Origin: Thermoplasmata archaeon
GTDB taxonomy: Archaea > Thermoplasmatota > Thermoplasmata > RBG-16-68-12
DNA: 45,539 bases
Assembly: GCA_036395115.1 (NCBI GenBank)
Contig: DASWDU010000008.1
Coordinates: 1-45,539, forward strand
Reading direction: 5' to 3'
Shown: piece after piece, positions 1-44,204 of the stretch
How positions within the stretch are numbered: position 1 is the stretch's first letter
Layout of the letters: each line of letters opens with the position of its first letter
Notes under the pieces: generated by a model
What the model was told of the DNA's origin: nothing
Databases searched by the model: none
Seen by the model: only the letters and a program-made list of their open reading frames with translations
Position numbers and translations under genes: made by a program

Positions 1-256
1 TACACCCCTTGGCCTCCTCATGGGAGGCCGGGTTGGCCTGTTGGCCTGTTGGTCGGCCCACGCGAATGGGCCGTCGCTCCTCCGAGATGCAACACCATCG
101 TCGCACCCCGGGCCCGTCCGTGTTCTGCGCAGAGCGCGTCATGCCGGACAGACCACTCGGACGGTGGTCTTCCACCGGAGGTGTGTAATCCACCTAATGG
201 ATGCCGCGCCATCATTGAGACGGAGGGAGGTCGGTGAAAGTGAAAATCCGGACGGA
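1..256 (+). repeat. Dispersed structured element, copy 1 (possible ncRNA), truncated at the window edge
   Basis: This stretch is closely similar to 8658-8906. Perfect stems occur at 11-17/23-29 (GGCCTCC/GGAGGCC), 55-60/67-72 (GGCCCA/TGGGCC) and 151-156/164-169 (GACCAC/GTGGTC). Compared with copy 2, stems are kept while loops and spacers differ in sequence and length. The third stem changes an A-U pair to a G-U pair, which still pairs. After a variable block of about 50 nt both copies share GGAGG followed closely by CGGTGAAAGTGAAAAT, which resembles a ribosome-binding site plus a GTG start at 234. No protein reading is convincing because indels between copies are not multiples of three. It could be a structured RNA, a non-autonomous mobile repeat, or a leader element. 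The true 5' end may lie outside the window. Confidence 0.6.
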
Positions 257-414
257 CCGGCCATCGATGCGACTTCTCGGTGCACGCGCGATGGCGCGCG
301 GGAACGAGATCCGTCGCCAATTCGCGCCGGGGAAATCCTTGCGCGCCGGCCGACTTGGGACTCTGCCAGAGTGCACAAAGCTCTTAGTCGGGCGGACCGT
401 TCGTTTTGGTGACG

Positions 415-2510: not shown

Positions 2511-5402
2511 GTGTACCTGTTCGAGGAGGGCGACGCCTCCCTGCGAGACCTGCTCGGCGGCAAGGGCGCGGGCCTCGCCGAGATGACGCGGCTGGGGCTC
2601 CCCGTGCCACCCGGCTTCACGATTACGACGAAAGCATGCAACGCTTACTCCAAGAGCGGCCGTTTCCCGCCCGGCCTCCTCAAGGAGGTCTTCCACGAAC
2701 TCGCGACGATCGAGGCGAAGGTCGGCCGAAAATTTGGGGATCCGGAGAATCCACTCCTCGTGTCCGTCCGGTCCGGGGCGAAGTTCTCCATGCCCGGGAT
2801 GATGGACACGATCCTGAACGTCGGGTTGAACGACGCGACCGTCGGCGCCCTTGCCCGGCAGACGGCGAACGATCGGTTCGCGTGGGACGCGTACCGTCGG
2901 CTGATCGCGCTCTTCGGCCGGATCGTCAAGGAGGTCGATGGGCGCAAGTTCGAGGCCATCCTAGATGGGTTCAAAGGGCGGACGGAAGGCAAGAGGGATA
3001 CGGACCTCACGGCGGACATGCTCCGATCCGTCGTCGAGGAATTCAAGGGCCTCTACCGGACCGAAGTCGGCGAGTCGTTCCCCCAGGACCCGGAGACCCA
3101 ACTCCGCGAGGCGATCGGTGCCGTGTTCCGCTCCTGGAACGGGAAGCGCGCCGTCGACTACCGGAACTTCAGCAAGATCCCGCACACGTTGGGCACCGCG
3201 GCGAACGTGCAGACGATGGTGTTCGGCAACATGGGCCCCGACTCGGGGACGGGCGTCGCGTTCACGCGGAACCCGTCCACCGGGGCCAAGGAACTATTCG
3301 GCGAGTTCCTGCCGGACGCCCAGGGGGAGGACGTCGTCGCGGGGATCCGCACCCCCATGAGGATCGCCCAGCTCCGGGAGAAGTTCCCGGATCTCTACGA
3401 AGAGTTCGCACGAGCTGCAGAGCTCCTCGAGAGGCATTATCGCGATGTTCAGGACATCGAATTCACGGTGGAGCGAGGCCGTCTCTGGATCCTCCAGACC
3501 CGGTCCGGGAAACGGTCCGCACGGGCCGCGGTCAAGATCGCGGTCGATATGGCGGGCGAGGGACTCATCTCGAGGCCGGAGGCGATCCTCCGCGTCGAGC
3601 CGGTCCATGTGGTTCAGCTCTTGCTTCCACAGTTCGACGAAAAGGCGAAGCTCGCGGCAAGGCGCGAGGGCCGATATCTCGCGAGGGGACTGAACGCCTC
3701 CCCTGGGGCCGCCGCCGGCTACGCGGTCTTCGATCCCGACGAAGCCGAGTCGCTCGGTCGCGACGAGAAGAAGGCGGTCGTCTTGATCCGGATCGAGACG
3801 TCGCCGGACGATGTCCATGGAATCCTCCATGCGAAGGGGGTGCTCACGGCCCGCGGCGGCGCGACAAGCCACGCGGCCGTCGTCACGCGAGGGCTCGGGA
3901 TCCCCTGCGTCGCGGGCTGCGAGTCGATCGCGGTCGACTACGACGAAGGGGAGTTCCGCGTGGGCGAGAAAATCGTGCACCGGGGCGACTTCGTGTCGAT
4001 CGACGGCGGCACGGGCGAGGTGTACGAAGGCCAGATCCCGACGATCGATCCCGACTTCACGAAGGAAGCCGATCTCCAAACGCTCCTCGGGTGGGCGGAT
4101 GAGGAGCGGCGCCTCCAGGTCTGGGCGAACGCCGACTACCCCCGGGACGCCCAGCGCGCGCGGGAGTTCGGCGCACAGGGAATCGGCCTCGACCGGACGG
4201 AACACATGTTCATGGAGACGGACCGACTCGACATCATGCACGAGATGATCCTCGCCGCCCCGGACTACCGACGGGTTTCGGCGGAGGTCCGGACGCTGAA
4301 GGCCGAGATGGAGACGGCGCGGGAGGACCGGCGTCGTGCCCTCGAGGACCGCCTCGTGCACCTCGAGCCGAGCCTCCAAGACCTCTCCCGCCGCTACCTC
4401 GGATCTCTCGAGAAACTCGAGCGCCTTCAGAAAGGGGATTTCGTCGGCATCCTGCGGGCGATGGCCGGGCTCCCCGTCATCATCCGTCTCATCGACCCAC
4501 CGCTACACGAGTTCCTGCCGAAGTACGAGACGCTGCTCGTCCAGGTGACGAAGCTCATGCTCGCGTCCGCGAGTCCCGACGTCCTGGTGCGAGCCGCGCG
4601 GTCCGACGACGACCATGCGTTCGTCGAGGAGGTCAAGCGGGCGGGCGAAGGGGAGATCGGCCGGGGGATCGAGACGCTCCTTCCGAGGAAGCAGTTGCTC
4701 CTGGACGCCGTCGCCGCCAGCCGCGAGACGAACCCGATGCTCGGGCTCCGCGGTTGCCGCCTCGGGATCACGTTCCCCGAGATCACCGAGATGCAGGTCC
4801 GCGCGATCTTCGAGGCGGCGTGTCAGCTTGCGAAGGAGGGACTCGACGTCAAGCCCGAGGTCATGATCCCCCTCGCGGGACACGTGAACGAACTCAAAGT
4901 GGAACGGGAGGCCCTCGAGACGGAAGCGCAGAAGGTGATGGAGCGGGAGGGCGTCCGGGTGGACTACAAATTCGGGACGATGATCGAGATCCCTCGAGCC
5001 GCCCTCACGGCGGACGAAATCGCGAAGTACGCGGAGTTCTTCTCGTTCGGGACGAACGACCTCACGCAGACGACGCTCGGCTATAGCCGCGACGACGCGG
5101 AGGGGAAGTTCCTGCTCGACTACGTCGAACGGGGGATCCTTCCCCACAACCCGTTCCAGACCCTCGACCGAGAGGGTGTCGGCGCGCTCATGCGGATGTG
5201 CGTCCAGAAGGGCCGCAAAGTCCGGAAGGACCTCGAGGTCGGGATTTGCGGCGAGCACGGCGGCGATCCCTCGAGCATCGAATTGTGTCACGAAATCGGC
5301 CTCGATTACGTTTCCTGTTCCCCGTTCCGCGTGCCCGTCGCCCGGTTGGCGGCGGCGCACGCGAAGCTGCGGAAGGACGTCGAGCGGCCCGAGGATCGCT
5401 GA
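2511..5402 (+). CDS. ppdK: Pyruvate, phosphate dikinase
   Basis: The enzyme reversibly converts pyruvate, ATP and phosphate to PEP, AMP and pyrophosphate, at the glycolysis/gluconeogenesis junction. Domains in order: N-terminal nucleotide-binding domain (LLGGKGAGLAEM, then SVRSGAKFSMPGMMDT), the phosphohistidine domain with GGATSHAAVVTRG (His about 454), and the C-terminal PEP/pyruvate barrel with GTNDLTQTTLG and GICGEHGGDP (catalytic Cys about 913). It has 963 residues, longer than the roughly 870-880 usual. Part of the excess is a charged coiled-coil-like insertion (about residues 585-640, ending before LQKGDFVGILRAM) where other family members have a short loop. The start is GTG at 2511; no ATG is in frame nearby, and family members begin with a similar KYVYLFEEG. 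The PrsW-like gene follows after 15 nt. Confidence 0.95.
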   Translation: MYLFEEGDASLRDLLGGKGAGLAEMTRLGLPVPPGFTITTKACNAYSKSGRFPPGLLKEVFHELATIEAKVGRKFGDPENPLLVSVRSGAKFSMPGMMDTILNVGLNDATVGALARQTANDRFAWDAYRRLIALFGRIVKEVDGRKFEAILDGFKGRTEGKRDTDLTADMLRSVVEEFKGLYRTEVGESFPQDPETQLREAIGAVFRSWNGKRAVDYRNFSKIPHTLGTAANVQTMVFGNMGPDSGTGVAFTRNPSTGAKELFGEFLPDAQGEDVVAGIRTPMRIAQLREKFPDLYEEFARAAELLERHYRDVQDIEFTVERGRLWILQTRSGKRSARAAVKIAVDMAGEGLISRPEAILRVEPVHVVQLLLPQFDEKAKLAARREGRYLARGLNASPGAAAGYAVFDPDEAESLGRDEKKAVVLIRIETSPDDVHGILHAKGVLTARGGATSHAAVVTRGLGIPCVAGCESIAVDYDEGEFRVGEKIVHRGDFVSIDGGTGEVYEGQIPTIDPDFTKEADLQTLLGWADEERRLQVWANADYPRDAQRAREFGAQGIGLDRTEHMFMETDRLDIMHEMILAAPDYRRVSAEVRTLKAEMETAREDRRRALEDRLVHLEPSLQDLSRRYLGSLEKLERLQKGDFVGILRAMAGLPVIIRLIDPPLHEFLPKYETLLVQVTKLMLASASPDVLVRAARSDDDHAFVEEVKRAGEGEIGRGIETLLPRKQLLLDAVAASRETNPMLGLRGCRLGITFPEITEMQVRAIFEAACQLAKEGLDVKPEVMIPLAGHVNELKVEREALETEAQKVMEREGVRVDYKFGTMIEIPRAALTADEIAKYAEFFSFGTNDLTQTTLGYSRDDAEGKFLLDYVERGILPHNPFQTLDREGVGALMRMCVQKGRKVRKDLEVGICGEHGGDPSSIELCHEIGLDYVSCSPFRVPVARLAAAHAKLRKDVERPEDR

Positions 5403-8464: not shown

Positions 8465-8514
8465 GATTATCGTTTGGCCATCCAGCAGGTCTACGCTTCG
8501 TGGACGGTTCTGTA

Positions 8515-8556
8515 ACGTTTGCGGGTGATGGCCCTAGCGGACCGCCACCGCAACGT
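8515..8556 (+). other. Long imperfect hairpin upstream of repeat copy 2
   Basis: ACGTTTGCGGGTG at 8515-8527 pairs with CACCGCAACGT at 8546-8556, giving 11 base pairs with two single-base bulges. It lies in the gene-free stretch between the small minus-strand ORF and the dispersed element, and may be part of the same transcript. Window truncation prevents checking whether copy 1 also carries it. Confidence 0.45.
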
Positions 8557-8657
8557 CGCTCCGCTCCGCTTCCGCTCCTCCCGTGCGCCTCTGGCCTCGC
8601 CAGGAGGACGTAGAGGGGACTCATCGCATAATCGCGGAGGGCACCGGGATGGAACCG

Positions 8658-8906
8658 TACACCCCTTGGCCTCCTCGTCGGAGGCCGGGTTCATTCAGTG
8701 GGCCCACGATTGGGCCGTCGCTCCTCCGAGATGCGACGCCATCGTCACACCCCGGGCCCGCCCGTGTTCTGCGCAGGGCGCGTCATGCCGGATTGGGCCA
8801 CTCGACGGTGGTCTTCCACCGGAGGTCTCGGTGGTCTATCCTAACGTGGGCGATTCCCATCGACGTTTTGGGAGGACATCGGTGAAAGTGAAAATGCGAA
8901 CGGAGC
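8658..8906 (+). repeat. Dispersed structured element, copy 2 (possible ncRNA)
   Basis: This is the second copy of the element at 1-256, in the same orientation, about 125 nt upstream of herA. Stems: GGCCTCC/GGAGGCC at 8668-8674/8680-8686 and GGCCCA/TGGGCC just downstream. The third stem becomes GGCCAC/GTGGTC, with a G-U pair replacing an A-U pair of copy 1. The core CACCCCGGGCCCG...CCACCGGAGGT is nearly identical; the first spacer is 11 nt shorter and the block before CGGTGAAAGTGAAAAT is 4 nt longer. The gene-free region 8465-9030 therefore contains this element, the hairpin at 8515 and the herA promoter. Confidence 0.65.
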
Positions 8907-8982
8907 TGTTATCAACGAATCTCCGGTGTGCGAGCGCGCCAATCTGTGAACGAGTTCGGGTGACCGCCCCGACCTGGACAAA

Positions 8983-8991
8983 TCTATTTAA
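8983..8991 (+). promoter_or_regulatory. TATA box for herA
   Basis: TCTATTTAA lies in a locally AT-rich patch immediately after repeat copy 2. It predicts a transcript start near 9013, about 18 nt before the ATG at 9031. The repeat is therefore upstream of, not inside, the herA mRNA. Confidence 0.65.
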
Positions 8992-9030: not shown

Positions 9031-10521
9031 ATGGAGTCCGCCGCTCATTCTAGGTCTTCTTCCCATCATGGCGACGGATTTGTCGGCGTCATCTACGGCG
9101 ACATCGGCACGACATCTTTCCGCTGTTCCGTCGTCGATCGGATCGAGCGGAATGAGTTCGTCCAAGTCGAACACGAGACGTGTGGCGTCGTCCTCGGCCG
9201 TGTCGACCAGATTGAGCGGAAGACGGACCTGTCGCTGGACCGCGCTCAGCAGCTGAACGACGGCGACCCGGTCGACGTGGAGGAGCGGGTGTCCGCCCAG
9301 GTCAGCGTGATCGGGTATCGGGACGACCGCCGATTGCTCCAGGTCCCGCGCACCCCGTTCCGCGCCGGCGAGCCCGTGCGTAAGGCGGAGACCGCCACGA
9401 TTCAAGAGGTCATCGGCCTCGAGGAAGACCGAAAGCACGGCGCCTATGTCGGGCTGCTGGCGGGCCATGACGTCCCCGTCTTCCTCGACATCAACGCGAT
9501 GGTCCAGAAACACGTCTCGATCCTCGCGAAGACGGGCGGCGGGAAGTCGTACATCGCGGGCGTCCTCATCGAGGAGCTCATGAAACACCACGTGACTTGC
9601 GTCATCGTCGACCCGCACGGGGAATACGCCGCCCTCCGGGACAAGGGGAAACACCCGGAAGGAGCGGCCCGCTTCCGCGTCGAACCGCGGGCCTACGCGG
9701 ACGTCATCCAGGTATTCTCCCCGGACACGAAGATCAACCCGGGGAGCCGGCCGCTGAAATTCACGCTCAGCAATCTCGACGCAAGGGACATCCTGTCGCT
9801 CACGGGCTCCGCGAAGGTCCGCACGCACCTCACGGGGCTGCGGAAGGCGCTGGACCTCCTGCGGCAGGCGACGAAAGACTACACGATCCGCGACATCATC
9901 CGCGTTCTCGAGCGTGAGGACGACCCACAGAACGCCTCCTTGATCGACGAACTCGAATACCTCAGCGAGGTCGAGATTTTCGCGAAGGAGGGCACGCGGA
10001 TCGACGAACTCGTGATCAAGGGCAAGACAACGATCATCAACCTGAAAGGAGTGCCCCCCGACATCCAGGAGCTCGTCGTGAACCGGCTCGCGACCGCGAT
10101 GTTCGAACTCCGCAAGGTCGGCCGGATCCCGCCCATGATGCTCGTCGTGGAGGAAGCACACAATTTCTGTCCCCAGGTCGGGCAGGTCGCGTCGTCGAAA
10201 GTCTTTCGAACGCTCGCTTCGGAGGGACGGAAATTCGGCCTCGGACTCGTCGTCATCACGCAGCGCGCCGCGAAGGTCGACAAGAACGTCCTCAGCCAGT
10301 GCAACACGCAGATCATCCTGAAGGTCACGAACCCGAACGACTTGAAGGCGATCATCGCGAGCGTCGAGGGCTTGACGACGGCGATGGCGGAAGAAATCTC
10401 CCGCCTTCCGATCGGCGTCGCGATCATGACGGGCGGGGGCCTCCAGATGCCGCTGATGGTCGAGGTCCGGCCGCGGGAGACGCGCCACGGGGGCGAGAGC
10501 GTGAAGGTCATCGAGGACTGA
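9031..10521 (+). CDS. herA: HerA-type hexameric DNA translocase/helicase ATPase
   Basis: HerA forms a hexameric bidirectional DNA translocase which, with the nuclease NurA, Rad50 and Mre11, resects DNA ends in archaeal recombination repair. Visible: an N-terminal HAS-barrel-like region (about residues 15-120), Walker A AKTGGGKSYIAG (Lys about 172), IVDPHGEY typical of HerA/FtsK-like ATPases, Walker B MMLVVEEAHNF, the arginine-containing LASEGRKFGLGLVVITQR, and LSQCNTQIILKV near the C-terminus. The 496 residues are normal for HerA. No nurA, rad50 or mre11 is present in the window, although these genes are often adjacent. Virus- or defence-associated HerA homologs exist, but the complete motif set supports the repair type. 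Confidence 0.9.
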   Translation: MESAAHSRSSSHHGDGFVGVIYGDIGTTSFRCSVVDRIERNEFVQVEHETCGVVLGRVDQIERKTDLSLDRAQQLNDGDPVDVEERVSAQVSVIGYRDDRRLLQVPRTPFRAGEPVRKAETATIQEVIGLEEDRKHGAYVGLLAGHDVPVFLDINAMVQKHVSILAKTGGGKSYIAGVLIEELMKHHVTCVIVDPHGEYAALRDKGKHPEGAARFRVEPRAYADVIQVFSPDTKINPGSRPLKFTLSNLDARDILSLTGSAKVRTHLTGLRKALDLLRQATKDYTIRDIIRVLEREDDPQNASLIDELEYLSEVEIFAKEGTRIDELVIKGKTTIINLKGVPPDIQELVVNRLATAMFELRKVGRIPPMMLVVEEAHNFCPQVGQVASSKVFRTLASEGRKFGLGLVVITQRAAKVDKNVLSQCNTQIILKVTNPNDLKAIIASVEGLTTAMAEEISRLPIGVAIMTGGGLQMPLMVEVRPRETRHGGESVKVIED

Positions 10522-10606: not shown

Positions 10607-10671
10607 AAACGTGTCCGTCTATCTTCACCGCGCCGGATTTGGTGCCCCCGCAGGAGCGAGGCAGGGGGGGC

Positions 10672-12018
10672 ATGAACGACACCGTCGTCGGCGAGTCTAC
10701 CAAGTCTTGGACGACTGGCCAGTTTCGACCCACGGGAAGGGTGTCGGGGACACGACGTGCCATCGGTGGTCGGGACGACCTTAGACCTTCCAGTGTTCGG
10801 ACCGTGCTTCTGTACGCTCAGGACAGCAAAGGAATGGGTCATGTCGCCCGGACCCTGACGATCGCTCGCCACCTCCTCGCCGCCTATCCGAACACCGTCG
10901 CTTACATCGCGACGGAGTCTCCCGTGACGAGCGAACTCCCCCTCCCGAGCCGATGCGACTACGTCAGACTGCCCACTCATTGGCTCTCTTGGGCGGATCA
11001 TGAGAAAGTTACCCAACACTTGCGCGACGAGCGCGCAAAGCTCCTGCGCGAGATCGCGCTGCAACTGGCTCCGGACCTGGTCATCGTGGATCACGAGCCG
11101 GTCGGCCATAAGGGCGAGTTCCGGGCCGGCCTCTTCGCGCTTAAGGCCGAACGTCCGTCGACCAAATTCGTCTTCGGGCTGCGCGACGTCATGGACGATG
11201 CGGGCCGGATCCAGGCACAGTGGCAGGAATTGGGAGTCTACGAGGCCCTCGAGACCGTGTACGACGTCATCGCCGTGTTCGGCGAACGCGGCGTGTACGA
11301 TATCGCAGATGCGTGCGCCCTCCCCGCATCCGTCCGGTCGAAGCTGCTCTATTGCGGATATGTCGTCCGAGAGCCGCCCCGGGTCGCCGGTCGCGAGGTG
11401 CGTGGACAGTACGGTTTGTCTCCGGAGGGACCCCTCTTGGTTGCCACGGTAGGCGGGGGAAGCGATGGCTACCCGCTGCTCGCGGCGACCTTGGATGCCC
11501 TGGACTGTTTGCAGGCCGCCCACCCGGGCCTCAACGCGATCCTCGTAACGGGACCGCTCATGCCGGCCGACGAGCAACTGGCGCTACGAGGACGAGCCGC
11601 GGCAAGGCGCCGGATCCTTTTCCATGCTGACAACTACCGACTCGTGAGCGTCGCAGACGCCGTCGTGAGCATGGGAGGCTACAACAGCGTGTGCGAAGCC
11701 CTGTGTGCCGGCAAACCCTTGGTCATCGTCCCGCGCATCGTCCCCAAACTCGAACAGCAGATCCGCGCGGCGACCATGGCGGCTAAGGGCTTGGCCCGTT
11801 GGGTCCATCCAAGGGATCTAAACGGGAAGAACCTCGCCGAAGCGATCGACTGGGCGTTGCGGCGCAATCGGGACGCGTATGCGCGACGGCTCCGCGAGGT
11901 GATTCCCTCGTTCGACGGCGCCCCGAGGCTCGCAGCCTACGTCGCCCAATGGCTCGGAAATGGTGACGTTCACCGCTCGCCTCCTAAGGATTCTCTGTCG
12001 GTGGAGGAAGCCGCATGA
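10672..12018 (+). CDS. Predicted glycosyltransferase, GT-B fold, COG4671/MurG-like (paralog A)
   Basis: The protein (about 448 residues) has the GT-B two-domain layout. The N-terminal acceptor-domain loop reads YAQDSKGMGHVARTLTIAR, with the GxGH signature of MurG/COG4671 enzymes. The C-terminal nucleotide-sugar-binding motif reads SMGGYNSVCEALCAGKPLV and is followed by EQQIRAATMAAKGLARWV. It probably transfers a sugar from a nucleotide donor to a lipid or small acceptor at the cytoplasmic face; there is no membrane segment. ATG at 10672 follows a G-rich stretch; an in-frame TTG/GTG reading upstream is less likely. About 35 residues precede the fold and are not conserved in paralog B. The stop overlaps the paralog B start as ATGA, which implies coupled translation. 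Confidence 0.85.
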   Translation: MNDTVVGESTKSWTTGQFRPTGRVSGTRRAIGGRDDLRPSSVRTVLLYAQDSKGMGHVARTLTIARHLLAAYPNTVAYIATESPVTSELPLPSRCDYVRLPTHWLSWADHEKVTQHLRDERAKLLREIALQLAPDLVIVDHEPVGHKGEFRAGLFALKAERPSTKFVFGLRDVMDDAGRIQAQWQELGVYEALETVYDVIAVFGERGVYDIADACALPASVRSKLLYCGYVVREPPRVAGREVRGQYGLSPEGPLLVATVGGGSDGYPLLAATLDALDCLQAAHPGLNAILVTGPLMPADEQLALRGRAAARRRILFHADNYRLVSVADAVVSMGGYNSVCEALCAGKPLVIVPRIVPKLEQQIRAATMAAKGLARWVHPRDLNGKNLAEAIDWALRRNRDAYARRLREVIPSFDGAPRLAAYVAQWLGNGDVHRSPPKDSLSVEEAA

Positions 12019-13331
12019 TCGCCCCCTCTAACGCCTCGATGTCGGAAAGTCCCGCTCGAGCCATGACCGAAGGCCGAAACCAGGACATCCTGATCATCCT
12101 GTTGTACGCGCAGGACAGCAAAGGAATGGGTCATGTCACGCGGAACCTGACGATCGCGCGCCATCTCCTCGCCGCGTACCCGAACGCCGTGGCCTTCATC
12201 GCGACGGAGTCGCCCGTCGTGGACGACTTCTCGCTGCCGAGACGCTGCGACTACATCAAACTGCCCAGGCGTCTGATCCCCGATGGGATTCGCGAAACGC
12301 AAGCCGAAGCATCGGACGGTAAGGACCATTTTCGGGACATCCGAGGGAGGATGCTACGCGAGGCCGCCTTGGGACTGGCCCCGGACCTTGTCCTCGTGGA
12401 TCACGAGCCCTTCGGGTATCGGGGGGAATTTCGCGAAGGACTCTTCGCTCTCAAGGACCGGTATCCCGACACGAAGCTCGTCCTCGGGCTACGCGACATC
12501 ATGGACGACCCGGGGCGGATCCGGGCGAAGTGGCGGGAGAAGGGGGTGTACGATGCTCTCAAGGACCTATACGATGGAATCGCGGTGTACGGCTCGCGTT
12601 CCCTCTACGACGTCGCGGACGCCTACGGCATTCCACCTCCGGTGATGTCCAAGTTGCACTACTGTGGATTTGTCGTCCGCGAACCGCCGGATGTCGATCC
12701 CGTCGCCGTACGACTCCGTTACGGGCTTCCCTCAAAGGGGCCTCTCGTGGTTGCAACGGTGGGCAGCGGCATCGACGGCGCTCCAGTTCTCGAAGCCACC
12801 GAAGCGGCCGTCGAGCGGCTCCGCGCGAAGTTTCCCGACCTCCGCGCCGTCCTCGTGACGGGACCGTTCATGCCGTCCGAACAACAGGCGAAACTTCAGG
12901 AGCACGCGACGGCGGCCGTCCGGGTCGTCCCGCGGGCCGACAACTTCCAGCTCATGGCATGTGCGGATGCGATCGTGAGCATGGGCGGATACAACAGCGT
13001 GTACGAAGCCTTGGTCGTCGGCCGACCGCTGGTGATCGTTCCGAGGTGCACCCACAAGGTCGAACAGCGGATCCGTGCGGAGACGCTCGCCGCACACGAC
13101 CTGGCCCGATGGATCCATCCGGAGAATCTGAACAAGGGTCGCCTCGCAGAAGACCTGGAGTGGGCCCTGACCCGCGATCGAGCAGCGCACGCGCGACTGG
13201 TTCGCGAAGTTATCCCTTCATTCGACGGGGCCGCTAACCTCACGGCATATCTCGGCTCGTGGCTCGGTCGCGCTCCCGCGGGCGGAGGACATTCCGGCAA
13301 AGAACCATCCCCGCTGGTGCAACCCGCATGA
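12015..13331 (+). CDS. Predicted glycosyltransferase, GT-B fold, COG4671/MurG-like (paralog B)
   Basis: This 438-residue protein is a tandem paralog of the preceding gene: YAQDSKGMGHVTRNLTIAR at the N-terminus and SMGGYNSVYEALVVGRPLV at the C-terminus, with nearly the same order of blocks throughout (DLVLVDHEPFG, LGLRDIMDDPGRI, LVTGPFMP). A 10-15 residue insertion after the first third (PDGIRETQAEASDG) differs from paralog A and may alter acceptor choice. Keeping both copies side by side suggests two sequential sugar transfers, or a heteromeric enzyme. It overlaps both neighbours by ATGA junctions (12015-12018 and 13328-13331), strong evidence of one operon. Confidence 0.85.
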   Translation: MIAPSNASMSESPARAMTEGRNQDILIILLYAQDSKGMGHVTRNLTIARHLLAAYPNAVAFIATESPVVDDFSLPRRCDYIKLPRRLIPDGIRETQAEASDGKDHFRDIRGRMLREAALGLAPDLVLVDHEPFGYRGEFREGLFALKDRYPDTKLVLGLRDIMDDPGRIRAKWREKGVYDALKDLYDGIAVYGSRSLYDVADAYGIPPPVMSKLHYCGFVVREPPDVDPVAVRLRYGLPSKGPLVVATVGSGIDGAPVLEATEAAVERLRAKFPDLRAVLVTGPFMPSEQQAKLQEHATAAVRVVPRADNFQLMACADAIVSMGGYNSVYEALVVGRPLVIVPRCTHKVEQRIRAETLAAHDLARWIHPENLNKGRLAEDLEWALTRDRAAHARLVREVIPSFDGAANLTAYLGSWLGRAPAGGGHSGKEPSPLVQPA

Positions 13332-41800: not shown

Positions 41801-41866
41801 GCGTCTCCCCGGATACGAGCCCATCTTGCGGGATGGGATGAACTCGCAGGCGCTGCAGGTGACGGA

Positions 41867-42961
41867 ATGAACTCGATGCTAGAGGACGTGCTCGCCCGGG
41901 AAGGGAGCGCACCCGCGTTCGAAGACAGTCGCGTCGACGCCGAGCTCGAAGAGATGCTCAGCAAGATGCGGACGAACATCAAGATCATTGGACTCGGCGG
42001 TGGCGGCTGCAACACCATCTCTCGAGTGTACAACGAAGGCATTGTCGGCGCGGAGCTGTTCGCCTGCAACACGGACGCGCAACATCTCTTGCACATCGCC
42101 TCCCCGAAGAAGGTCCTCCTCGGTCGGCGGATCACCAAGGGGCTCGGGGCCGGCGCTCTGCCGCAGATCGGCGAAGAGGCCGCCCGCGAGGCCGAGGAGG
42201 AGCTCCGGGGAATCGTCCAGGGCTCGGACATCGTGTTCGTGACGTGCGGCCTCGGCGGCGGCACGGGGACCGGCAGTTGCGGCTACGTCGCTCGGCTCGC
42301 GAAGGAGATGGGCGCCCTCACGATCGCGGTCGTCACACTTCCGTTCCGAGGCGAAGGCAAGTTGCGGATGGAGAGCGCCGAGTGGGGATTAGAGCGACTG
42401 CGGGACGCCGCGGACACGGTCATCACGATCCCGAACGACAAGCTCCTCGATCTCGTGCCGCGACAGAGCTTGAACCTCGCGTTCAAGTTCGCGGACGAGG
42501 TCCTGATGCGCTCGATCAAAGGTCTCACGGAGATCATCACGAAGCCCGGCCTCGTGAACCTGGACTTCAACGACGTGAAGACGATCATGAAGGGCGGCGG
42601 CGTCGCGATGATCGGCCTGGGCGAGAGTCAGGCGGTCGGCGACAACCGTGCGGTCGAGGCGATCGAGGAAGCGATCAACTCGCCCCTCCTCGAGGTCGAC
42701 GTCTCGACGGCTCACGGCGTCCTGATCAACGTGACCGGGGGCAACGACATGACGATTTCCGAGGCGGAGCGCGTCGCGGAGGTCGTCCAATCGAAGGTCT
42801 CTCCGACTGCGCGGATTATCTGGGGCGCGACCGTGGACCCGTCTCTGGAGCACACCCTCCGCGTGATGCTCGTCGCCACGGGCGTGAAGTCGAAGCAGAT
42901 CGTCGGGCGCCGCGATCCGGCGGAAGAGCGGGCCCGGGTCGGCATCGACGTGATTCGCTAG
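41867..42961 (+). CDS. ftsZ: Cell-division GTPase FtsZ (paralog 1)
   Basis: FtsZ polymerises with GTP into the division ring. The GTP site shows [23 protein letters not shown] and the tubulin signature [16 protein letters not shown]; the T7 synergy loop [11 protein letters not shown] is intact, so the protein should form and hydrolyse in filaments. After the signature, SCGYV replaces the common AAPVI/GAPVV. The 364 residues end GIDVIR, similar to paralog 2, with no long tail. ATG at 41867 has a good ribosome-binding site. The second ftsZ lies 133 nt downstream with its own TATA box, followed by secE and spt5. Confidence 0.93.
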
Positions 42962-43017
42962 CCGCGAGGTTCCGATTGCCCTGACGACCGTGTGCGGCCC
43001 AAGACGCCGTTCGCAAC

Positions 43018-43027
43018 CCTTATAACC
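43018..43027 (+). promoter_or_regulatory. TATA box for the second ftsZ and secE-spt5
   Basis: CCTTATAACC between the two ftsZ genes predicts a transcript start near 43049. The leader contains GGAGGC at 43080-43085, ten bases before ATG 43095. Confidence 0.65.
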
Positions 43028-43094
43028 GGCACGCTCTTACGCGAGAAGCGAAATTACTCCTCCAGCCGCGAGGCTATTCCCGGAGGCCCGGATC

Positions 43095-44204
43095 ATGGAT
43101 TCGATCGTCAAGGAGGTCGTCACCCGGTCGGGTGGAGAACCTCGGGTGCCCGAGTCCCCCACACAGTTCCTCGGCGTCGGTGCCGAGGACGCCGAGCTCG
43201 AACGGATCCTCGCGAGCCTCCGCACGAACATCAAGATCCTCGGGATTGGGGGCGGCGGCTGCAACACGATCGACCGACTCGTCGAAGCCGGAATCGTGGG
43301 CGCGGAGCTGTACGCCGCGAACACGGACGCGCAACACCTGTTGACGATCCGCTCGCCGCACAAGCTCTTGTTGGGCCGGCGCGTGACCCGTGGACTCGGC
43401 GCGGGCGCTTTGCCGCAAGTCGGCGAAGAGTCCGCGCGGGAAGCGGCCGACGAAATCCGTTCCGTCGTGCAGGGCGCCGACATGATTTTCATCACGTGTG
43501 GCCTCGGGGGCGGCACGGGCACGGGCGGTGCCCCGGTCGTCGCGCAGCTTGCGAAGGAGGCCGGCGCGCTGACGATCGCGATCTGCACGTTCCCCTTCCG
43601 AGCCGAGGGCGCGATTCGCGCGGAGAACGCGGAGTTCGGCCTGGAGAAACTCCGGAGCTTCGCCGACACGGTCGTCGTGATCCCGAATGACAAACTGCTT
43701 GAACTCGTCCCGCGTCTCGCGTTGAATGCGGCATTCAAGGTCGCCGACGACGTCCTGATGCGGGCGATCAAGGGGATCACCGAAGTGATCACGAAGCCCG
43801 GACTCGTGAACCTGGACTTCAACGATATCAAGACGATCATGAAAGGGGGCGGCGTAGCGATGATCGGACTCGGGGAGAATGACCGCGACGACCGCGCGGA
43901 GGCGGCGATCGAAGAGGCGATTAACTCGCCCCTGATCGACGTCGACATCAGCCACGCGACCGGCGCCCTCGTGAACGTGACGGGCGGGAACGACATGAGC
44001 GTCTCCGAGGCCGAGAAGGTTTCCGAGATCGTGCAGGGCCGCATCGCGCCGAACGCCCGCATCATCTGGGGTGCGGCGATCGACCCGAGCCTCGAGCACA
44101 AGATCCGCGTCATGCTCATCCTGACCGGAGTGAGGTCGAAGCAGATCCTCGGACCCGGGGAACACCCGAGGGCGCCCCACGCGGGCGTCGACATCGTGAG
44201 GTGA
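43095..44204 (+). CDS. ftsZ: Cell-division GTPase FtsZ (paralog 2)
   Basis: The 369-residue protein has [23 protein letters not shown], the canonical signature GGGTGTGGAPVVAQLA and an intact T7 loop NLDFNDIKTIM. By eye about two thirds of aligned core residues are identical to paralog 1, closer than I would expect for the two standard archaeal FtsZ1/FtsZ2 classes, suggesting a lineage duplication. A good ribosome-binding site (GGAGGC) precedes ATG 43095. Its stop is next to secE, and FtsZ followed by secE and spt5 is a gene order found in many euryarchaea. It lacks a long C-terminal linker and ends AGVDIVR. Confidence 0.94.
   Translation: MDSIVKEVVTRSGGEPRVPESPTQFLGVGAEDAELERILASLRTNIKILGIGGGGCNTIDRLVEAGIVGAELYAANTDAQHLLTIRSPHKLLLGRRVTRGLGAGALPQVGEESAREAADEIRSVVQGADMIFITCGLGGGTGTGGAPVVAQLAKEAGALTIAICTFPFRAEGAIRAENAEFGLEKLRSFADTVVVIPNDKLLELVPRLALNAAFKVADDVLMRAIKGITEVITKPGLVNLDFNDIKTIMKGGGVAMIGLGENDRDDRAEAAIEEAINSPLIDVDISHATGALVNVTGGNDMSVSEAEKVSEIVQGRIAPNARIIWGAAIDPSLEHKIRVMLILTGVRSKQILGPGEHPRAPHAGVDIVR

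Follow-up and report, generated by a model that had tools for sequence, protein, structure and literature searches.

The hairpin-rich repeat found twice in the window, i.e. the whole stretch of 45,539 nucleotides analysed here, is a short mobile element from soil archaea in which tnpB has been lost but the right-end hairpin, the omegaRNA scaffold and a promoter-like motif at the left end have been kept. It is very probably (about 0.8) a non-autonomous, MITE-like member of an archaeal transposon family with terminal inverted repeats (TIRs), 9-bp target-site duplications and TnpB as cargo, the insertion of which is locked to archaeal promoters. The element resembles MITEs in that it is short, without an open reading frame, bounded by TIRs and target duplications, dispersed, and absent from empty sites in relatives. 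The window corresponds to contig C8 of an uncultivated Thermoplasmata-type archaeon with a genome of 2.4 Mb, and the nearest relatives are Angelo-type soil 'Euryarchaeota EA' genomes.

The two copies and their insertion sites

The initial annotation described similarity between positions 1-256 and 8658-8906 in the same orientation, and these segments are indeed 77% identical (E ~1e-48) with blocks of 93-94% identity. Both are intergenic as described, 159 nt upstream of rio1 (ATG at 415) and 125 nt upstream of herA (ATG at 9031). The extents had to be revised, however, because copy 1 ends at 367 and copy 2 occupies 8506-8970; the full length of TnpB-less elements is about 365-520 bp. Likewise, GGAGG followed by CGGTGAAAGTGAAAAT is not the end of the repeat as had been assumed but a subterminal motif that is also found in tnpB-bearing elements. 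The search of the whole genome that had been called for rendered at least 11 further matches, with 11 matches to copy 1 and 13 to the part upstream of copy 1.

Base 1 of the window is the contig start and lies inside the repeat. The first 57 bases are shared exactly with the end of contig C17 and, reversed, with the start of contig C46, as is typical of assembly breaks caused by repeats. C17 carries the tail of eIF1A at its end, and relatives have the gene order eIF1A-rio1. Because of the 57-base overlap and this conserved synteny C17 most likely joins C8, so that copy 1 would extend about 160 nt upstream of base 1. These 160 nt at the end of C17, behind eIF1A, comprise the right end, the TIR and most of the omegaRNA scaffold. 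The 5' end of the scaffold is at 1-9 (minus strand) and the remainder at C17:22115-22223, as placed by the match of a covariance model (R1) on C17 and by alignment. The part of copy 1 in the window (1-367) also contains a second structured RNA domain specific to TnpB-less elements, R2 (76-190, minus strand, 125.5 bits with its covariance model, supported by structure and pair counts), and the left-end motif GGTGAAAGTGAAAATCC (233-249, minus strand), which is common to tnpB-bearing elements. The right target duplication AGAGTGCAC (368-376) has its left counterpart AAAGTCCAC on C17 and adjoins the BRE/TATA box of rio1, AAAGCTCTTAG (377-387, plus strand).

Copy 2 (8506-8970) is complete with 465 bp and has no open reading frame conserved between the copies; no reading frame common to the TnpB-less copies was found when these were compared. 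It is flanked by the left duplication TTCGTGGAC (8497-8505) and the right duplication GACCTGGAC (8971-8979), the latter adjoining the herA BRE/TATA box AAATCTATTTAA (8980-8991, plus strand). On the minus strand are the right end with the TIR GGTTCTGTAAC and a hairpin (8506-8558), which would be at the 3' end of the omegaRNA, the scaffold (8559-8666, 109.3 bits with R1), R2 (8720-8834, 125.5 bits) and the left-end motif GGTGAAAGTGAAAAT (8881-8895), a putative promoter.

The TIRs (GGTTCTGTNAC...) are common to the TnpB-bearing and TnpB-less forms, the best copies being similar over about 25 bp, and the elements terminate in ...GAACC. Both forms also have 9-bp target duplications, which are perfect in GAATGGACA (G029:C211, TnpB-less), CCGCCACCG, GAGGCCGCG, ATGCCGCCA, GCGAGTGGC and CTCCGTGAG. 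Some duplications are imperfect, and in the order set described below, unlike the set of 12 elements, some of their ends were placed visually. Empty sites confirm the insertions at rio1 and herA: eleven relatives lack the element before the conserved AAAGCTCTTAG box of rio1, and at herA relatives have GTGGAC followed directly by AAAGATATTTAAC, whereas in the window GTGGAC is followed by the element, GACCTGGAC and AAATCTATTTAAC.

A third, still smaller derivative is located at about 4450-4696 of G029:C139 (L228), upstream of a TFB gene. This element of about 220 bp has the same repeats and a near-perfect 9-bp duplication.

Guide RNA scaffold, second RNA domain and TnpB

A sequence search with a full copy located its first ~185 nt in many relatives, where they are followed by the antisense of the TnpB C-terminus (reverse complement TSKTCPVCGARRRDRVG...CDWEMDRQINAGMNILKTA) and not by the second half found in the window. 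In these loci the conserved 108 nt are the scaffold of the TnpB omegaRNA, on the minus strand with respect to the window. The scaffold is common to the TnpB-less copies and the intact tnpB elements of the same genome, and it overlaps the right end as well as the 3' end of tnpB, as in OMEGA elements. The RNA of the element is most likely on the minus strand, and the left-end motif GGTGAAAGTGAAAATCC may be the promoter of this transcript. The whole minus-strand RNA of copy 2 folds with z = -2.2, and the right ends form a hairpin with a mean z of -2.1 over 25 right ends.

Covariance models and covariation tests, as proposed in the initial annotation, reveal compensatory changes in both RNA domains. 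R1 finds the scaffold at 41 places in 14 of the 37 genomes of the order, with 97.4% of cells paired, two-sided changes in ten pairs and a covariation score of 0.287 compared with 0.104 after shuffling and no more than 0.091 in slid controls. R2 occupies the place of tnpB in the TnpB-less elements; it is found beside an R1 scaffold in 9 of 9 copies, never beside tnpB and nowhere else in the 37 genomes. Its fold is multi-branched; 96.5% of the cells are paired, four pairs have two-sided changes, and the covariation of 0.127 against 0.092, from only nine sequences, gives moderate support for the predicted structure. Rfam gave no match to the element at gathering scores; permissive scans rendered noise only, and matches to glmS and ZEB2_AS1 were rejected as such. 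The proposal of a new ncRNA family or a non-autonomous mobile element is partly borne out in both halves. The mobile side is supported by TIRs, target duplications and empty sites in relatives. On the RNA side the domains covary and have no Rfam family, but half of the repeat consists of the right end and omegaRNA scaffold that TnpB elements also have and is not new in kind.

The nine TnpB-less copies, six in the genome of the window and one each in G018, G019 and G029, span four species, three genera and two families. They might be decaying deletion remnants without RNA function, in which structure is inherited rather than maintained, since TnpB-less and partly deleted copies exist (G000:C11, C36, G008:C46, L009) and recent descent could alone explain the similarity of the scaffolds. 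We find this unlikely because random deletion would not leave copies in four species and three genera with the same extra domain, near-invariant blocks and compensatory changes. The TnpB-less scaffolds moreover have GGGGUG/CACCCC in place of GGGCUG/CAGCCC, a swap in which pairing is compensated. A maintained RNA element that has lost its tnpB is the reading preferred here.

The genome of the window has four tnpB matches to PF07282 in addition to copies broken at contig ends, and intact tnpB genes are present in this genome (G000). The TnpB proteins of the family match PF07282 at 2e-19 and also match TnpB/Cas12f chains in PDB. RuvC-I Asp and RuvC-II Glu are invariant in 34 aligned members, while at the position of the third RuvC Asp, which aligns with the Asp of D-Y-N-A-A in AsCas12f (7wju), all members with that motif aligned have Gln or His, and there is a conserved Asp two residues before this position. 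Because the other residues are fixed, a rearranged active site appears more likely than a dead enzyme; however, cleavage should not be assumed, and with Gln or His at this position both cleavage and a retention step that depends on it are uncertain. Rearranged TnpB sites have reportedly been seen in census work. A class-wide TnpB clade (L135, L136, L137 and loci L263-L296) has DR[QH]xNA compared with the usual DxNAA, and D180, E183, D187 and E271 are invariant in it.

Insertion is locked to promoters in one orientation

The position of the insertions was compared in 28 curated junctions (the order set, with few exceptions from the order), which were aligned where the duplication stops. One base separates this point from the 'AA' of the BRE, with A at +2 in all 28 junctions and at +3 in 27. 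The TATA box follows with T at +7 in 23 of the 28, A or T at +9 in every junction, and in 26 of them also at +10. Positions +25/26 are an A/T pair, which is where the archaeal -10 element is expected. All junctions but one have a TATA box at +7 to +10, the exception being G018:C119 without a clear TATA. Counting from the TATA box, the cut is at about -43/-35 and thus immediately upstream of the BRE.

An independent set was built from TnpB elements with about 45% protein identity, belonging to other families of the class, in which duplications and repeats were located by a script blind to promoters. Twelve elements were resolved, with repeats of the type GGTTCTGTTGC... or GGCTTTGGGATTT... Positions +7 to +12 have 83-100% A/T on the left-end side compared with 17-58% on the right-end side, and the TATA box is beside the left end in these elements, in none of them at the right end. 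The orientation is uniform in these elements of other families (12/12) and in all order-set elements with both flanks read (25/25). Insertion is locked to promoters in a single orientation, with the left end beside the promoter.

At many sites the upstream stop codon is within 15 bp of the duplication, and selection contributes to the positions where intergenic gaps are short. Selection might even be the only cause, if compact genomes spare only insertions between a stop codon and the next promoter. The lock, however, is precise to 1-2 bp. It holds at several sites where the upstream gap exceeds 20 bp, and it is equally precise at seven sites with about 35-145 bp of upstream room (C16, herA, C17b, G011:C162, G018:C143, G019:C119 and G019:C123), the orientation does not vary, and no resolved element is located in a gap without a promoter. 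Selection without targeting is therefore a quite unlikely explanation, and promoter-locked insertion remains the preferred one.

The promoter position also bears on whether the repeat is a cis-regulatory RNA of the downstream genes, such as a riboswitch or a leader. The elements are structured and always upstream of, and co-oriented with, a gene, as such an RNA would be. However, the BRE/TATA of the gene is downstream of the element, which therefore lies outside a leader made from that promoter, and a riboswitch or leader RNA was ruled out on this ground. The downstream genes are moreover unrelated, and relatives lack the element at the same genes, which leaves a cis-regulatory function scarcely credible.

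One promoter site holds a TnpB-less element in G000:C30:35034-35440 and a TnpB-bearing element in G017:C233:1713-2942, in different species; either the site was reused or one form was replaced by the other. In G011:C31, G017:C107, G011:C33 and G024:C29, frameshifts or stops interrupt tnpB, although the promoter-locked ends are intact.

Relation to known systems and a possible mechanism

The initial annotation held that a match to a known transposon end would speak against its proposal. The ends are those of TnpB-bearing elements, but no described IS family was found for these. The target is not duplicated when IS605 transposes (PMC8612924), and IS607 lacks both inverted repeats and duplications (PMC6188088). 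The present elements have both, and therefore do not belong to those families despite TnpB; a transposase other than that of IS605/IS607 is implied. An element of IS605/IS607 type moved by a Y1 or serine TnpA would account for TnpB and a right-end omegaRNA, which are typical there, but it is very improbable with TIRs and 9-bp duplications in most copies and no TnpA beside any tnpB examined.

The closest precedent for the family proposed here is the p-MULT group of Mutator-like elements (TnGBS/ISLre2/ISKra4). These have inverted repeats of 18-39 bp ending in C and duplications of 8-9 bp, and they insert in an oriented manner at a fixed distance upstream of bacterial sigma-A promoters, with the -35 box 15-17 bp away (PMC3942029). 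The orientation has been ascribed to asymmetry of the two repeats, and insertion at archaeal promoters (ISH6, with an AT-rich target) has been the subject of speculation only (PMC3942029). The present elements are similar in their repeats ending in C (with ~25 bp similarity), the 9-bp duplication and the promoter-locked oriented insertion. They differ in that they adjoin an archaeal BRE/TATA and carry TnpB or the omegaRNA only, whereas p-MULT elements encode a transposase.

The enzyme that moves the elements would be a DDE-type transposase, probably Mutator-like, acting in trans. IS256 (PF00872) and DDE_Tnp_1 (PF01609) were considered and rejected as no full gene was found: PF00872 is represented by one fragment in 1 of 19 genomes of the genus, and PF01609 is absent from ten element-bearing genomes. 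A pattern search for an autonomous element with the same TIR rendered only TnpB-bearing and TnpB-less copies, the 220-bp derivative in G029:C139 and chance matches, the last being histidine-kinase genes (family f2). The transposase would recognise the promoter either through the bound TBP/TFB complex or through the BRE-TATA sequence, and insert the element at about -43/-35 in one orientation. A similarly narrow integration window is known from the Ty3 retrotransposon, where it is set by promoter-bound TBP and a TFB-like factor (TFIIIB) and spares host genes (PMC8632968). Ty3, however, is a retrotransposon at Pol III genes, and tethering by proteins is an inference for the present elements.

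A minus-strand RNA would be made, the 3' end of which, consisting of the duplication and the end of the upstream gene, would serve as the guide. Read as an omegaRNA, this transcript would end 16-20 nt past GUNACAGAACC, and the order of scaffold, right end and flank as guide is the geometry of ISDra2. As in the TnpB-reRNA/omegaRNA of IS200/IS605 elements such as ISDra2, the scaffold is composed of the right end together with the 3' end of tnpB, the flank would act as guide, and the target-adjacent motif is beside the left end (PMC8612924). Unlike ISDra2, the present family has TIRs, a 9-bp duplication, no TnpA, Gln or His instead of the RuvC-III Asp, and TnpB-less forms. At the empty site, junction alignments suggest that the guide flank would be preceded on its 5' side by TTN (NAA in reverse complement), which derives from the BRE 'AA' and could plausibly serve as target-adjacent motif. 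A guide formed as a copy of the TIR by the inner arm of the right-end hairpin was also considered. It scored 14.3 against its own TIR compared with 11.6 against others and 10.7 against shuffled sequences, which is explained more simply by the right-end hairpin; the guide was therefore placed beyond the right end, as in ISDra2.

The omegaRNA of the TnpB-less copies may work in trans. TnpB made elsewhere in the genome could target the empty allele and help to keep the TnpB-less element. Trans-acting omegaRNAs are described for IscB, and these too are guide RNAs without an adjacent nuclease gene. The present ones differ in being of TnpB type, archaeal, and mobile with their own TIR and an extra RNA domain. 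We tentatively suggest, at slightly less than even odds, a guide-RNA-only transposon that has dropped the protein, gained a further RNA domain and relies on TnpB supplied in trans; it would belong to an archaeal group with TIRs and 9-bp duplications that integrates with base-pair precision beside the TBP/TFB-bound promoter.

Neither TnpB guide RNAs nor, in bacteria, oriented insertion directed by promoters is new. Archaeal elements with TIRs and target duplications, carrying TnpB or a guide RNA alone and locked to BRE/TATA, were not found in the literature searched. TnpB is known from IS605/IS607 and is here carried by elements with inverted repeats and target duplications. If their scaffold is maintained, the TnpB-less copies would represent natural elements consisting of a guide RNA alone. 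Archaeal promoters are recognised by these elements with a precision of about 1 bp, and their way of finding promoters can be tested with purified TBP and TFB. The junctions can also be used as evolutionary markers of BRE/TATA positions in uncultivated archaea.

Two other repeats were seen in the window. Two adjacent paralogous genes at 10639-13331 have 82% identity over 176 nt, apparently from a tandem duplication of a glycosyltransferase-like gene, and two tandem paralogous genes at 41866-44204 have DNA that is about 70% identical in blocks.
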